Below, piece by piece: positions 4,635 through 9,156 of a stretch of DNA of 34,432 nt. The first letter of the stretch is position 1. Every line of letters starts with the position of its first letter. The position numbers were made by a program, and so were the translations under genes. The stretch is from Spirochaetia bacterium (GTDB lineage Bacteria; Spirochaetota; Spirochaetia; CADAEX01): positions 1 through 34,432 of the forward strand of contig JAFZIU010000128.1 of assembly GCA_017554185.1 (NCBI GenBank), given 5' to 3'. The notes under the pieces are model-generated. The model was not told where the DNA came from, ran no database searches, and was given only the letters and a program-made list of their open reading frames with translations.

Positions 4635-4635
4635 A

Positions 4636-4670
4636 TAATTAAAAACCCCAATCAAGGGGCTTTTCAATTA
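4636..4670. terminator. Bidirectional terminator between convergent genes
   Basis: CCCC (4646-4649), a 6-nt loop and GGGG (4656-4659) are extended by A/T pairs (AAAA with TTTT) and an outer TAATT/AATTA pairing, with one bulged C at 4660 and one mismatch. It lies between the NFACT stop (4634) and the stop of the minus-strand repeat gene (4684). T-rich tracts follow the stem in both directions. Confidence 0.7.
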
Positions 4671-4683
4671 TTTCATTTTAAAA

Positions 4684-5613
4684 TTAATCATACCGAATTT
4701 CTTTTCCACCTGGTTTGATTACACGAACTAGATTCCCATCTTCATCATACCAAACTTCTTCTCCATCTGGCTTTTTCTCATGGACAATATTTAAAGTGGA
4801 ACCAAACCAAGTTTCTGAACCATCTGGGTCTTTCTCGTGAATTAAATCTCCATTATCATTATACCAAGCTTCTAAACCATCAGACCTTTTCTCATATACT
4901 TTTATATTTTCAAAATTATATTTATACCAAATCTCTTTATAGGAAAACTTATGTGAATATTTTAAATATATTGTTCTTCCTTTTTCATCATATTCATACC
5001 AGTTTTCATCGCCATTCGAACAACGTTCAGAGATTAGGCGACCTTTATCATCATAGTCATACCACTTTTCTTTTCCATCAGAGTATATTAAATGGATTTC
5101 TCCTTCTTTTGTATCATAGTCATACCAACATTCTCTGCCATCCGAGTATTTTAAATGTATTTCTCTTCCTTGGTCATCATATCTATGCCAATACTCTTTT
5201 CCGTTAGACCATTTCTCATGGATTTTGTTTCCTTTATCATCATAGTCATACCAACATTCTCTGCCATCTGGCTTTTTTAAATAAATCTTATTTCCTTGGT
5301 CATCATACTTATACCAAAACTCTTTGCCATCAGACCATTTCTCGTGGATTTTATTTCCTTTAGTATCATAGTCATACCAATATTCAGCCCCATCTGAGTA
5401 TTTTTTATAGATTTCATTTCCTTTGGAATCATATTCATACCAACATTCTCCTTTCGACATAAAAATGGTTTCTTTAACAGGAATATCTTTTTCAATATAA
5501 AATATTTCTTCTCCAGCTGACCATCTTTTGTTAATTAACTTCCCTTGTTCATCGTATTTATACCAATACTCTTTCCCATATATATTTCTTTCATAGATTT
5601 TATTTCCTTTGGC
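4684..5613 (-). repeat. 63-bp coding tandem repeat array
   Basis: The DNA repeats with a 63-bp period, matching 21-residue protein units. For example, the 30-nt segments at 5113-5142 and 5239-5268 are identical and exactly two periods (126 bp) apart. Other units diverge mostly at third positions. This degree of DNA identity would allow unit gain or loss by slippage or recombination. Confidence 0.8.
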
Positions 5614-5922
5614 ATCGTATTCACAATTAAGATTAGTTAATTTTTTTTTAGTTGGCGTCTTTTTCCTTTTTTTATTATTACTAAAGACTATCAGATTAAA
5701 GATAACATCAGAAAGAACAAAAATCGGCCAACCAAAGAAAACAATAAGAAATGATGATAAATTAACTTTCATTAAAAGTGGTGGCAACTCTGTTCTATCA
5801 GGCGTAGCAATCCAAATAAATGATTTTAGAAAACCTGTAGTAAGATAGAATAGACAAATACTTAAAAGTATAGAATGACTTATAAACCAAGTAATAACCC
5901 CAACAATTATTCCAACAATCAT
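4684..5922 (-). CDS. Membrane-anchored YD-type tandem repeat protein (412 aa)
   Basis: Function unknown. Residues 2-37 and about 54-80 are strongly hydrophobic and are followed by KKRKK at 84-88 and TKKK, then from residue 101 a tandem array to the C-terminus. The repeat unit is 21 residues with consensus YDxKGNxIHxKxSDGxExW; the last three units shrink to 19 residues by losing the YD pair. The pattern resembles RHS/YD repeats, so a beta-rich solenoid is likely. By the positive-inside rule the basic stretch after the last helix places the repeats in the cytoplasm, unlike the two exported paralogues at 7586-9075. Codons are far more AT-rich than in flanking operons, suggesting acquisition. ATG 5922 has a weak GGAA site and a candidate promoter at 5943-5970. 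Confidence 0.8.
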   Translation of the reverse strand: MIVGIIVGVITWFISHSILLSICLFYLTTGFLKSFIWIATPDRTELPPLLMKVNLSSFLIVFFGWPIFVLSDVIFNLIVFSNNKKRKKTPTKKKLTNLNCEYDAKGNKIYERNIYGKEYWYKYDEQGKLINKRWSAGEEIFYIEKDIPVKETIFMSKGECWYEYDSKGNEIYKKYSDGAEYWYDYDTKGNKIHEKWSDGKEFWYKYDDQGNKIYLKKPDGRECWYDYDDKGNKIHEKWSNGKEYWHRYDDQGREIHLKYSDGRECWYDYDTKEGEIHLIYSDGKEKWYDYDDKGRLISERCSNGDENWYEYDEKGRTIYLKYSHKFSYKEIWYKYNFENIKVYEKRSDGLEAWYNDNGDLIHEKDPDGSETWFGSTLNIVHEKKPDGEEVWYDEDGNLVRVIKPGGKEIRYD

Positions 5923-5942
5923 ATAATTTCCATAAATAATAA

Positions 5943-5970
5943 AAAATACAATAATATTTTAATCTGTAAA
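5943..5970 (-). promoter_or_regulatory. Candidate promoter for the 412-aa repeat gene
   Basis: On the minus strand TTTACA (5970-5965), 16 nt, then TATTTT (5948-5943). It would start transcription about 14 nt before ATG 5922. The region is very AT-rich, so chance matches are easy. Confidence 0.35.
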
Positions 5971-6013
5971 AACAGTTTTAGCAATAAAAAACGAATAGCA
6001 TCTTTTATCAGAA

Positions 6014-6043
6014 TTGACAGTAAAGAAATGGGTATAATATTAT
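6014..6043 (+). promoter_or_regulatory. Sigma70-type promoter of the AT-rich tail-anchored protein gene
   Basis: A perfect TTGACA (6014-6019) is followed after 18 nt by TATTAT (6038-6043). Transcription would begin near 6050, just before the strong ribosome site GGGGAGG (6055-6061), which lies 8 nt before TTG 6070. This arrangement decides the start of the following gene. Confidence 0.6.
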
Positions 6044-6069
6044 ATTATTATCAAGGGGAGGAAGTTAGA

Positions 6070-6984
6070 TTGAGATTTCAAAATGCTATTACAATAAGTT
6101 ATAAAGAGAAACTTGATGAAGAACTTTTTTGGATTGTCCGTTTTAAATCTAAAATAGCAAGAATAGTTGTTTGGATTATTAAATGTGCCAATAATTTTTC
6201 GTTTTCCAACAAAAGAAAACGTGTAGAAATTATGACATTCCTTTTTTTCTATGCTTCTCGATTTTGTTTTCATCTCTTGTCCGAAGAAGAAAGAAGAAGA
6301 GTTGTTAATTTATTTTATGACCGTATTACTGTTATTATTAATGGTTATCCATCTTCTCCAAGTAACTCTATCAATGTCCCCTCTTATTTAAATCTTAGAT
6401 TTAATTCTTATATAAACATTTTTGAAAAAGTTCCTCCTAAAGAATATTTAAAAGTTTTAATTGATTTCCAAATTAGTCTATTCAACAATATTGATAATAA
6501 AAATTTTTCAACTCAAATCTTCCAAGACTATATTCCGTCTAGAACTGATTATCGGGTTTCTACAGAAATTGCGGAATACTATAAAGAAGTAATGCCAATC
6601 TTTATGAATGAATTAAAAAATCTAATTTGTGGGGTTGGTTATACTAATCGATGGGATGATGATAACTTTGACATACATAATCCTCCAATAGCTGATGAAG
6701 GAGAAGAAGATGAGGGTGATGAATGGGAAAAGGTTAATGTTGATAATTATAAAGTTGTAAATATTATGCCAGTTTACAAGAAAGAAAACATTTATGGCAA
6801 CTTCTATGATAATTCAAACATTGATAGTTATGATACAACAAGTGAATTTTCTTTTCACGACAAATTAGATAATTGTATAAATCCTCTTGATAAAATAGAG
6901 AAGAAAAGTATTTTAGAAGGGAAAATATTTATTCTTCTAGGTATAATCCTAATTGGAGTGATTATTTTCCTCTTTAATTTATAA
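6070..6984 (+). CDS. AT-rich orphan protein with C-terminal membrane anchor
   Basis: No family recognised. The frame is open from 5875, but that longer form would overlap the divergent gene and include the promoter. TTG 6070 is preferred because GGGGAGG lies 8 nt upstream; this gives 304 residues. Visible features (in this numbering) are a hydrophobic-basic N-terminal third rich in Phe, Ile and Arg; a middle rich in Asn, Tyr and Phe; a strongly acidic patch around residues 210-225; and a last segment of about 20 hydrophobic residues ending at the stop, typical of a tail anchor with the bulk in the cytoplasm. Codon use is extremely AT-rich, like the divergent repeat gene, which suggests the two arrived together. 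Being a real gene is supported by its length and its promoter and ribosome site. Confidence 0.65.
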   Translation: MRFQNAITISYKEKLDEELFWIVRFKSKIARIVVWIIKCANNFSFSNKRKRVEIMTFLFFYASRFCFHLLSEEERRRVVNLFYDRITVIINGYPSSPSNSINVPSYLNLRFNSYINIFEKVPPKEYLKVLIDFQISLFNNIDNKNFSTQIFQDYIPSRTDYRVSTEIAEYYKEVMPIFMNELKNLICGVGYTNRWDDDNFDIHNPPIADEGEEDEGDEWEKVNVDNYKVVNIMPVYKKENIYGNFYDNSNIDSYDTTSEFSFHDKLDNCINPLDKIEKKSILEGKIFILLGIILIGVIIFLFNL

Positions 6985-7082
6985 TAATGAATGTCTAAAA
7001 AATTCATCCAATAATTCTTCAAGACAATCTTTCTCTGCCTCCTTATCCACTATAACAACAAAAAAAAGCAAGCCCAATAAAA

Positions 7083-7102
7083 AAGCCCCTTAGCAGGGGC
7101 TT
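7083..7102 (-). terminator. Terminator of the lipoprotein/YD-repeat operon
   Basis: AAGCCCC (7083-7089), loop of 6, GGGGCTT (7096-7102). Read on the minus strand the stem is followed by six T residues, so it ends the minus-strand operon whose last stop is at 7127. It could also slow plus-strand readthrough from 6984. Confidence 0.8.
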
Positions 7103-7126
7103 AAAATTTGACTATATGTCATCCCA

Positions 7127-7570
7127 TTATTTTTCTGTGTCATATTCTGTGCCATTTATAATAATCTTCTTTACCTTGCTATCTTTTTGAACTGCATATA
7201 ATGAACAATTTGCCGACCCTTCAGCACTCTCTCGTAGAATATTAGAAAAATCAAAAATAATGCTGTCTCCACCTGTCAAAGTGCCGGTCAGGTTTACTTT
7301 ATAGTGTGTATTGTCCAAAACCACATCATCTATTTCAGCATTAGTAAAAACAAGGGCATTTTCACTTTCACTTACATTAGCGGGCAGAGTACCGGAAGAG
7401 TAATATTCATATAATATATCACTAATAGCCTGAATTGCGACAGCACATGTCAGCCGTTGAGCATATGGAGCCTCTGAAATTGGAGGGAGGTCATCATCAC
7501 TGCTACTGCCACTACAGGAAACAAAAAACACACAAAGTGTCATCAGAAAAAACAAAAGAATCTTTTTCAT
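7127..7570 (-). CDS. Small predicted lipoprotein (147 aa)
   Basis: Function unknown. The N-terminus MKKILLFF... is a lipoprotein signal peptide with lipobox FVSC and the acylated cysteine at residue 19, followed by a Ser/Asp-rich linker of about 10 residues that should tether it to a membrane. The remaining 115 residues are polar, with alternating beta-type segments and two further cysteines (in LTCAV and ANCSL) that could form a disulfide. It is the last gene of a three-gene minus-strand operon, starting 15 nt after the 232-residue YD-repeat gene. Co-expression with two exported repeat proteins suggests a shared role at the cell envelope; this is inference. Confidence 0.75.
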   Translation of the reverse strand: MKKILLFFLMTLCVFFVSCSGSSSDDDLPPISEAPYAQRLTCAVAIQAISDILYEYYSSGTLPANVSESENALVFTNAEIDDVVLDNTHYKVNLTGTLTGGDSIIFDFSNILRESAEGSANCSLYAVQKDSKVKKIIINGTEYDTEK

Positions 7571-7585
7571 ATCTATACCCTACCA

Positions 7586-8284
7586 TCACAATGGATAATA
7601 CTCAATACATCTTTTTATCTTGCCGTTGCTCCAGAAATCATATCCATACCAGTATTCATAGCCATCGGAGTTTGTCTCGTGGATAATGTTGCCATCAGCA
7701 TCACGCTCGTACCAGGTCTCTAATATGTCAGGGTTCTTTTCGCTTCCATCCGACCATTTTTCGTAAGTCATTTTCCCTTTGGCATCGTACTCATACCACC
7801 ATTCTTCGCCGTTCAAGGCTCTGGTGTGAATCTTGTTCCCGGCAGAATCGTATTCATCCCACCATTCACCGCCTTCATTATTCTTCTGATGAATCAGATT
7901 ACCCTTGGAATCATATTCATATTCATTACGATATTCATAGCCGTCTGACCATTTTGAACGGGTTCTGCTTCCATGTTCATCATACTCATGCCAGCCTTCA
8001 AGAGGGGCAGAGCCCTTTGTCTCCCCTTCTGACCATTTCTCGTGGATCATTTCCCCTTTGGAATTATATTCAAACCAATATTCTTTATCATTCAGAACTG
8101 TCTTATGAATCATGTTGCCCTTGGTATCATATTCCTTGACAACATTGACCTCGAACAGCTTATTGAACTTGTTTCCATCAAAGATGATTTCTTTGGTGAC
8201 CTTATCGCCCACCTGCTGGGCAAATGCCGCTGTTCCTAATACGATGCCTATTATGCAAATAAAAAGAATATTTTTTCTCATCAT
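7586..8284 (-). CDS. Exported YD-type repeat protein (232 aa)
   Basis: A signal peptide at residues 1-22 ends AFA-QQ, a type I peptidase site, so the protein should be periplasmic or released. From residue 51 come about six or seven imperfect YD-type units (YDxKGNxIHxKxSDG followed by an aromatic pair), some with insertions of 4-8 residues, and a tail RCIEYYPL that ends the array. No enzymatic motif is seen. The start is the first of two adjacent ATGs; the upstream gene's TGA overlaps it as ATGA, and AAAGGAA on the minus strand just upstream is the ribosome site. It is paralogous to its upstream neighbour and to the membrane protein at 4684-5922. Confidence 0.8.
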   Translation of the reverse strand: MMRKNILFICIIGIVLGTAAFAQQVGDKVTKEIIFDGNKFNKLFEVNVVKEYDTKGNMIHKTVLNDKEYWFEYNSKGEMIHEKWSEGETKGSAPLEGWHEYDEHGSRTRSKWSDGYEYRNEYEYDSKGNLIHQKNNEGGEWWDEYDSAGNKIHTRALNGEEWWYEYDAKGKMTYEKWSDGSEKNPDILETWYERDADGNIIHETNSDGYEYWYGYDFWSNGKIKRCIEYYPL

Positions 8285-8979
8285 GGGGTTCCTTTCTCAA
8301 TCACATTTCCGTTTTCATCAAACCACTCTTCCGAGCCGTCGGAATACTTTATATGGATCAGCTTACCGTTGTCGTCGAACCACTGCTCCTGGCCGCCGTC
8401 CCACTTTGCGTGGGTTACTTTTCCATAGATATCGTACCACTCTTCGTCGCCATTAGAATACCTGATATGCGCCAGATTTCCTTTGTCGTCATAATCAAGC
8501 CAGAACTCTATGTTGTCGGATCCTGTGCCGTGGGTGGCATCGCCTGCCTGATTGTATTCATCGTACCACTCTGAGTAGCCATCGGCCCACTTTATAAAGA
8601 TTATTCTTCCGCTGGAATCGAACCATTCCTCGGATCCGTCTGAGTTCTTCTCCCGGGTCTTGTTCCCTTTGCCGTCGTACCAGACTTCGTGGCCGTCGGT
8701 GGATCTTGAGTGATTCTTGTTCCTGTTGATGCCGTACCATTCCTCGTAACCATCTGGCCACTGTATATGGATAAGCCTGTCGCTGCCATCGTAGTTCCAC
8801 AGCTTTCCTTCCTTGTCCAGATATCTCTTGCTGACTATTTTTCCGGCATCATCATAGTCTGTCCAGGTCTCTAATCCGTCTGCATTCTTCTTGTGGGTTG
8901 TCCGCCCCTGGGCATCGTACCATAATTCAGTGCCATCAAGCTTTTTCTCGTGGATCTTATTTCCTCTGACATCATATTC
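7640..8979 (-). repeat. Degenerate 57/63-bp coding repeats in two adjacent genes
   Basis: Units of 57 bp (19 residues) and 63 bp (21 residues) continue through both exported YD-repeat genes with only the second gene's signal peptide and linker (about 8135-8284) interrupting. These are more diverged at DNA level and less AT-rich than the array at 4684-5613. Confidence 0.7.
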
Positions 8980-9075
8980 TACTAAAAGAACTCCAGAAGG
9001 CTCTGATGACTGTGCAAATAAATCTATATCTAAAAAAAGGAATAATAAACAAATTACAAGAGTAATCTTTCTCAT
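8281..9075 (-). CDS. Exported YD-type repeat protein (264 aa)
   Basis: The signal peptide at residues 1-21 ends LFA-QSS. The rest, from residue 33 to the end, is an uninterrupted array of about 11 units alternating between 19 residues (EWYDxxGxxxxxKxSDGxE) and 21 residues, where an extra YD is inserted. There is no toxin or catalytic domain and no RHS-core cleavage motif (DPxGL), so this is an array without the C-terminal payload of true RHS proteins. It is the first gene of a three-gene operon. The promoter at 9082-9110 would place the transcript start at or next to the ATG, and no ribosome site is visible, suggesting leaderless translation. Confidence 0.8.
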   Translation of the reverse strand: MRKITLVICLLFLFLDIDLFAQSSEPSGVLLVEYDVRGNKIHEKKLDGTELWYDAQGRTTHKKNADGLETWTDYDDAGKIVSKRYLDKEGKLWNYDGSDRLIHIQWPDGYEEWYGINRNKNHSRSTDGHEVWYDGKGNKTREKNSDGSEEWFDSSGRIIFIKWADGYSEWYDEYNQAGDATHGTGSDNIEFWLDYDDKGNLAHIRYSNGDEEWYDIYGKVTHAKWDGGQEQWFDDNGKLIHIKYSDGSEEWFDENGNVIEKGTP

Positions 9076-9081
9076 ATTTAT

Positions 9082-9110
9082 AATGTACTCAATAAAAGCT
9101 GATTTATCAA
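9082..9110 (-). promoter_or_regulatory. Promoter of the exported YD-repeat operon
   Basis: On the minus strand TTGATA (9110-9105), 17 nt, TACATT (9087-9082). The expected start of transcription, about 7 nt after the -10 box, coincides with the A of ATG 9075. No Shine-Dalgarno sequence precedes that ATG. Confidence 0.5.
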
Positions 9111-9114
9111 CAAA

Positions 9115-9140
9115 AAAAAGCCCCTCTGAAGGGGCTTTTT
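9115..9140. terminator. Terminator after the response regulator
   Basis: AAAAAGCCCC (9115-9124), loop of 6, GGGGCTTTTT (9131-9140): a 10-bp stem with T and A tracts that works in both directions. It follows the response regulator stop (9157) on the minus strand and insulates it from the repeat operon. Confidence 0.85.
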
Positions 9141-9156
9141 AGTAATAAGTTCAAAC

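Follow-up and report, generated by a model that had tools for sequence, protein, structure and literature searches.

YD repeats are known in toxin shells that are exported, in surface proteins and in teneurins, and the known examples of the YD β-ribbon fold, apart from the case described here, belong to secreted proteins and to toxin shells. Long YD genes of treponemes have been suggested to bind carbohydrates (PMC3747143), RHS/YD repeats have been counted in a treponeme study (PMC8049484), and a microarray table includes TDE1558 and TDE1560 of Treponema denticola among the genes whose fold change is negative (PMC7586716); the YD genes that we found in the Treponema literature belong to T. denticola and T. 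pedis only (PMC3747143, PMC8049484, PMC7586716). Here we describe a small YD-repeat gene, designated YD_TM, and its divergent neighbour, designated the orphan, in a window of 34,432 nucleotides (the whole stretch of DNA that was analysed), whose contig is G000:C125 of a 1.61-Mb assembly in 131 contigs. The reading that we favour, and regard on balance as probable, is that the pair is accessory cargo: YD_TM would be a membrane-tethered β-ribbon binding scaffold facing the cytoplasm, and the orphan would be an independent ORFan membrane protein carried on the same AT-rich DNA. The features concerned are as follows.

4641-4664: hairpin T1, terminator-like, between the convergent NFACT-like gene and YD_TM; the hairpin next to the YD gene of genome G006 has the same 19-nt core, CCCCAATCAAGGGGCTTTT.
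4684-5922, minus strand: YD_TM, a 412-aa membrane-anchored YD-repeat protein with predicted helices at residues 2-39 and 49-81, a K-rich linker at 83-95 and a predicted β-ribbon array at about 99-412.
5923-6069: divergent intergenic region, with promoter-like TTGACA (6014)-18-TATTAT (6043) on the plus strand and the ribosome site AGGGGAGG at 6054-6061.
6070-6984, plus strand: orphan, a 304-aa ORFan; N-terminal two thirds helical in a low-confidence model, acidic low-complexity linker at about 195-260, C-terminal membrane anchor at 286-304.
7083-7102: hairpin T2, terminator-like, at the convergent ends of the orphan and lipoprotein genes; the same hairpin type follows the lipoprotein homologue in G004.
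7127-7570, minus strand: lipoprotein gene, 147 aa, AT-rich; G002 and G004 carry homologues (41%) at another site.
7586-8284, minus strand: YDsec1, a 232-aa YD-repeat protein with a signal-peptide-like N-terminus.
8281-9075, minus strand: YDsec2, a 264-aa YD-repeat protein that begins with a signal-peptide-like segment and is closest to the YD gene that G006 carries at this site.
9115-9140: hairpin T3, terminator-like, between the 3' end of the response regulator and YDsec2.

The first-pass annotation, made from the sequence without database searches, had described two genes facing away from each other over about 150 bp, and both genes stand as described, on opposite strands and 147 bp apart. 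The frame of the orphan holds 353 open codons against a maximum of 182 among 5000 sequences simulated under a dinucleotide model, and we therefore take it as real. Its best start is the TTG at 6070, with the ribosome site 8 nt upstream; an alternative start, ATG at 5875, was rejected, because it would run into YD_TM and the 195 bases that it adds do not show the codon-position GC pattern of the gene. Candidate promoters had been proposed on both strands, of which the plus-strand one is a strong match (11/12), while the minus strand offers weak matches alone (9/12).

The array of 21-residue repeats noted in YD_TM proved to consist of YD repeats, since TIGR01643 matches it in eight stretches (84.7 bits against a cut-off of 15.8; 2.6e-24) and PF05593 (RHS_repeat) reaches 45.9 bits against a cut-off of 22, so that the protein qualifies as a tandem YD/RHS repeat protein; the units are of 21 aa in the middle of the array and of 18-19 aa at the C-terminus. 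The difference between units is 0.30 at codon positions 1 and 2 versus 0.40 at position 3, a comparison that is not a formal test and is consistent with protein-level constraint on the YD units. A structure model based on an alignment of the three YD proteins of the window has pLDDT mostly of about 80-96 over the array, residues 139-156 excepted, and shows regular hairpins in addition to the two N-terminal helices; the array is thus predicted to fold as an open single-layer β-sheet ribbon. In Foldseek searches this model matched Rhs cores, teneurins, an engineered OspA single-layer sheet and viral MORN proteins, and because the TM-scores were low (about 0.15-0.37), local hairpin geometry alone is shared with these known structures. 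YD_TM was also considered as an Rhs toxin and rejected: it has no complete core (42.3 bits for NF041261, RHS_core, against a cut-off of 2000, in a protein of only 412 aa), and its translation ends in repeat units and contains neither a DPxGL-type cleavage motif nor a variable toxin domain. All YD_TM-like matches in its own genome are confined to the island described below, the N-terminal membrane part as sole query gave only chance matches containing stop codons, and a search of the species-genome and viral contig collections with exact peptide patterns, which were overly specific, gave no match.

The N-terminal membrane anchor assigned earlier to YD_TM is supported by hydropathy. This N-terminus is long and hydrophobic, with the two predicted helices followed by KKRKKTPTKKK, and, set beside the short signal-like segments at which its relatives begin, it does not appear to have the form of a Sec signal peptide with an exported array. 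Because the K-rich stretch NNKKRKKTPTKKK lies directly after the last helix, the positive-inside rule places the array in the cytoplasm; the same rule makes it plausible that the soluble parts of both proteins are cytoplasmic, as the first reading had proposed. A cytoplasmic array would be an unusual change of side, and nothing else in the finding is as distinctive as this prediction.

The orphan shows a basic N-terminal part, predicted as helical at low confidence, an acidic linker with 19 D/E versus 4 K/R in residues 195-260, and a confident hydrophobic C-terminal helix, where hydropathy supports an anchor at residues 286-304; the acidic patch and the C-terminal anchor noted at first sight are thus both present. 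Its structure model made without an alignment had a pLDDT of 39 and was unusable. The protein remains as unrecognised as it first appeared: there was no significant match in Pfam, PHROGs, NCBIfam or PADLOC, no convincing homologue in its own genome, in 60 relatives or in 395 genomes of the class and 393 of the phylum, none among phages and plasmids, and no solved relative among PDB sequences. No homologue was found in 84,980 species genomes or in viral contigs either, and since these scans detect close relatives only, more distant homologues may exist outside the phylum. Two candidate matches were discarded, one in G363 (7.5e-4 per genome, of which about 0.3 are expected over 395 genomes), which falls on an M16-peptidase-like gene and is attributable to chance, and one in G044 at 0.0089.

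Both genes have a foreign base composition, with GC of 0.31 for YD_TM and 0.27 for the orphan and GC3 of 0.23 and 0.19, whereas genes of the window outside the island have GC of 0.46-0.61 and GC3 of 0.49-0.74. In 1-kb windows GC falls to a minimum of 0.262 at the pair, compared with a mean of 0.49 (sd 0.039) in a sample of 371 kb from 40 other contigs of the genome, and only one other place in that sample is below 0.30; the low GC reported for the pair is thereby confirmed, and its composition differs from the mean of the genome sample. The claim that the pair is far more AT-rich than everything around it holds only in part. The pair is the AT-richest part of a five-gene island, with a sharp jump in composition at 4640, but the adjoining lipoprotein gene is likewise AT-rich (GC 0.37, GC3 0.28) and the two YD genes at 7586-9075 are intermediate (GC 0.41 and 0.46), so that GC rises stepwise to the background reached at the response regulator (0.50). 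Elsewhere in the genome, at L166 (G000:C129) 6605-7534, another gene of very low GC (0.28; 309 aa) adjoins a Fic/DOC-family gene; it contains an acidic/E-V-K stretch that is nuclease-like by eye.

The island is flanked by the NFACT-like gene on one side and, on the other, by a response-regulator gene that belongs to a two-component system; across the genus, the cargo at this junction varies. The range 4635-9156 of the window was compared with six related genomes (G001-G006). In two genomes of this genus, G002 and G004, the flanking genes were found back to back, with at most 3 bp between them; G003 and G005, also of this genus, carry a large amino-acid-permease gene between them, and G006, of this genus too, carries one secreted YD gene. 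G001 has a different neighbourhood, with a MEMO-like gene 3' of the NFACT-like gene. The contents of the site thus range from nothing through a permease or a single YD gene to the stack of five genes found here, so that the turnover of accessory genes in the small genomes of this lineage can be seen clearly on a small scale. The first-pass annotation had overlooked both this site and the YD neighbours of the pair. The acquired, accessory status proposed for the pair is well supported by the low GC and GC3, by the gene-free junction in two sister genomes and by the other cargo found in others. As judged from composition only, the genes may have been stacked stepwise, with YDsec2 being the oldest, the lipoprotein gene and YDsec1 following, and the AT-rich pair coming last; YDsec2, which has the most background-like composition, is the nearest of them to the YD protein of G006 (56% over 245 aa).

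Hairpins of the type GCCCC-N-GGGGC (T1-T3) stand at the ends of the cargo genes and are unique in this genome with the patterns searched; a further hairpin of the type was recorded at L048 4647-4670. Since all of them are at gene ends, and the lipoprotein homologue of G004, which is AT-rich (GC 0.32) and located at another site, ends in a hairpin of the same type, we read them as terminators that arrived with the genes; their interpretation as mobility signals was rejected on the same grounds. In G004 and G002 the AT-rich lipoprotein homologues (L174 6023-6508 and L175 6358-6870) lie at a second site that seems to be variable as well. A short open stretch on the minus strand at 6979-7080, which ends in VVIVDKEAEKDCLEELLDEFFRHSLL and may be a gene remnant, lies between the orphan and T2.

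These observations are best accommodated if the pair is the AT-richest, and probably the latest-arrived, part of a stack of accessory genes at this site. YD_TM would then be a membrane-tethered, cytoplasm-facing offshoot of a small stand-alone YD family that is otherwise Sec-secreted, its array most likely serving, at the inner face of the cytoplasmic membrane, as a scaffold for passive binding or as a sensor surface, and the orphan would be an independent, lineage-specific tail-anchored protein whose gene arrived on the same AT-rich DNA. Against this cargo reading are the divergent layout, the shared AT-rich interval and the prediction that both products are membrane proteins facing the cytoplasm; layout and shared topology together exceed the coincidence expected of unrelated neighbours. 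Because the orphan has no homologues, its independence from YD_TM is as hard to show as a partnership.

The same points lend themselves to a second explanation, that of a true two-gene membrane module as suggested in the first-pass annotation, in which the cytoplasmic YD array would hold the tail-anchored orphan or sense it; the two might be, for instance, the regulator and the effector in a response to stress or in defence, expressed from a shared divergent promoter region. The divergent arrangement with one good promoter match, the matched composition, the predicted anchoring of both proteins with their soluble parts in the cytoplasm and the location in a cargo site agree with such a module, as does the fact that the other very AT-rich gene sampled in the genome adjoins a Fic/Doc-type gene. 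It finds no comparative support, however: without an orphan homologue in the collections searched there is no co-occurrence, and the YD relatives elsewhere are never beside a similar gene. Neither YD_TM nor the orphan matched a PADLOC defence family up to E 1. We consider such a module, the main rival of the cargo reading, unlikely. Its more specific form appears quite improbable: a two-component membrane system not described before and acquired as one AT-rich unit, in which a YD β-ribbon facing the cytoplasm restrains a tail-anchored effector of unfamiliar fold. Roles in defence, competition or signalling are still speculation, since the orphan has no significant PADLOC, PHROG, NCBIfam or Pfam match, and the pair itself has little value as long as the orphan lacks known relatives.

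A third explanation, which we regard as very improbable, is a locus of toxin-immunity or antitoxin type, in which the YD/MORN-like array acts as a YwqK-type MORN_2 protein or is an Rhs remnant and the orphan is the toxin or the immunity partner. The array does resemble MORN and Rhs folds, and the annotation as YwqK-family antitoxin is given to some MORN proteins (it occurs once among the structure matches), but the MORN_2 profile gives YD_TM 11.5 bits (E 0.4), below the gathering cut-off of 29.6, the RHS_core score is 42 bits against 2000, no C-terminal toxin domain or DPxGL-type motif is present, and the orphan matches no toxin or immunity family. An artefact joining foreign AT-rich DNA into a contig of this metagenome-type assembly is hardly credible, in spite of the 131 contigs and the sharp jump at 4640, because the flanking gene order is that of the sister genomes, the cargo sits exactly in the junction that holds a YD gene in G006, the 19 nt of hairpin T1 recur in G006, and to the right the GC changes in steps.

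Returning to the reading as accessory cargo, YD_TM can be placed among the known repeat proteins as follows. It has the repeat sequence and the predicted β-hairpin array of YD repeat (TIGR01643)/RHS_repeat (PF05593) proteins, and differs from them in being a stand-alone array of 412 aa without an Rhs core shell, a toxin tip or a delivery domain. MORN_2/YwqK-family proteins likewise have short β-hairpin repeats, and the predicted fold of viral MORN proteins is similar to that of YD_TM, whose profile match is, however, not significant and which has no known partner toxin. The genes TDE1558/1560 and TDE2020/2022 of T. denticola are treponeme genes with YD repeats, but they encode 1126-3320 aa and are paired together, whereas here a small array stands beside an ORFan. 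Closest are the small secreted YD proteins of G006, G033, G371, G356, G360, G388 and others, which share with YD_TM the small single-gene array, the same repeat unit, the lack of an attached toxin and the lineage-specific copies. In the class-wide search, ten genomes of another family had close relatives of the array, and these were small stand-alone YD genes of this kind, solitary or tandem in unrelated contexts, almost all with a signal-peptide-like start and never beside a relative of the orphan. Some carry an SH3_3 domain; signal-peptide YD proteins fused to a bacterial SH3_3 domain are present at L117 1672-2931 and L127 6578-7714, of which one scores above the curated cut-off and the other slightly under it, a hint that the secreted relatives have a role in the envelope. 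YD_TM departs from these small secreted proteins in having two predicted membrane helices and a K-rich linker in place of the signal-like start, and a YD array that is anchored in the inner membrane and faces the cytoplasm would, if true, be a new use of the fold.
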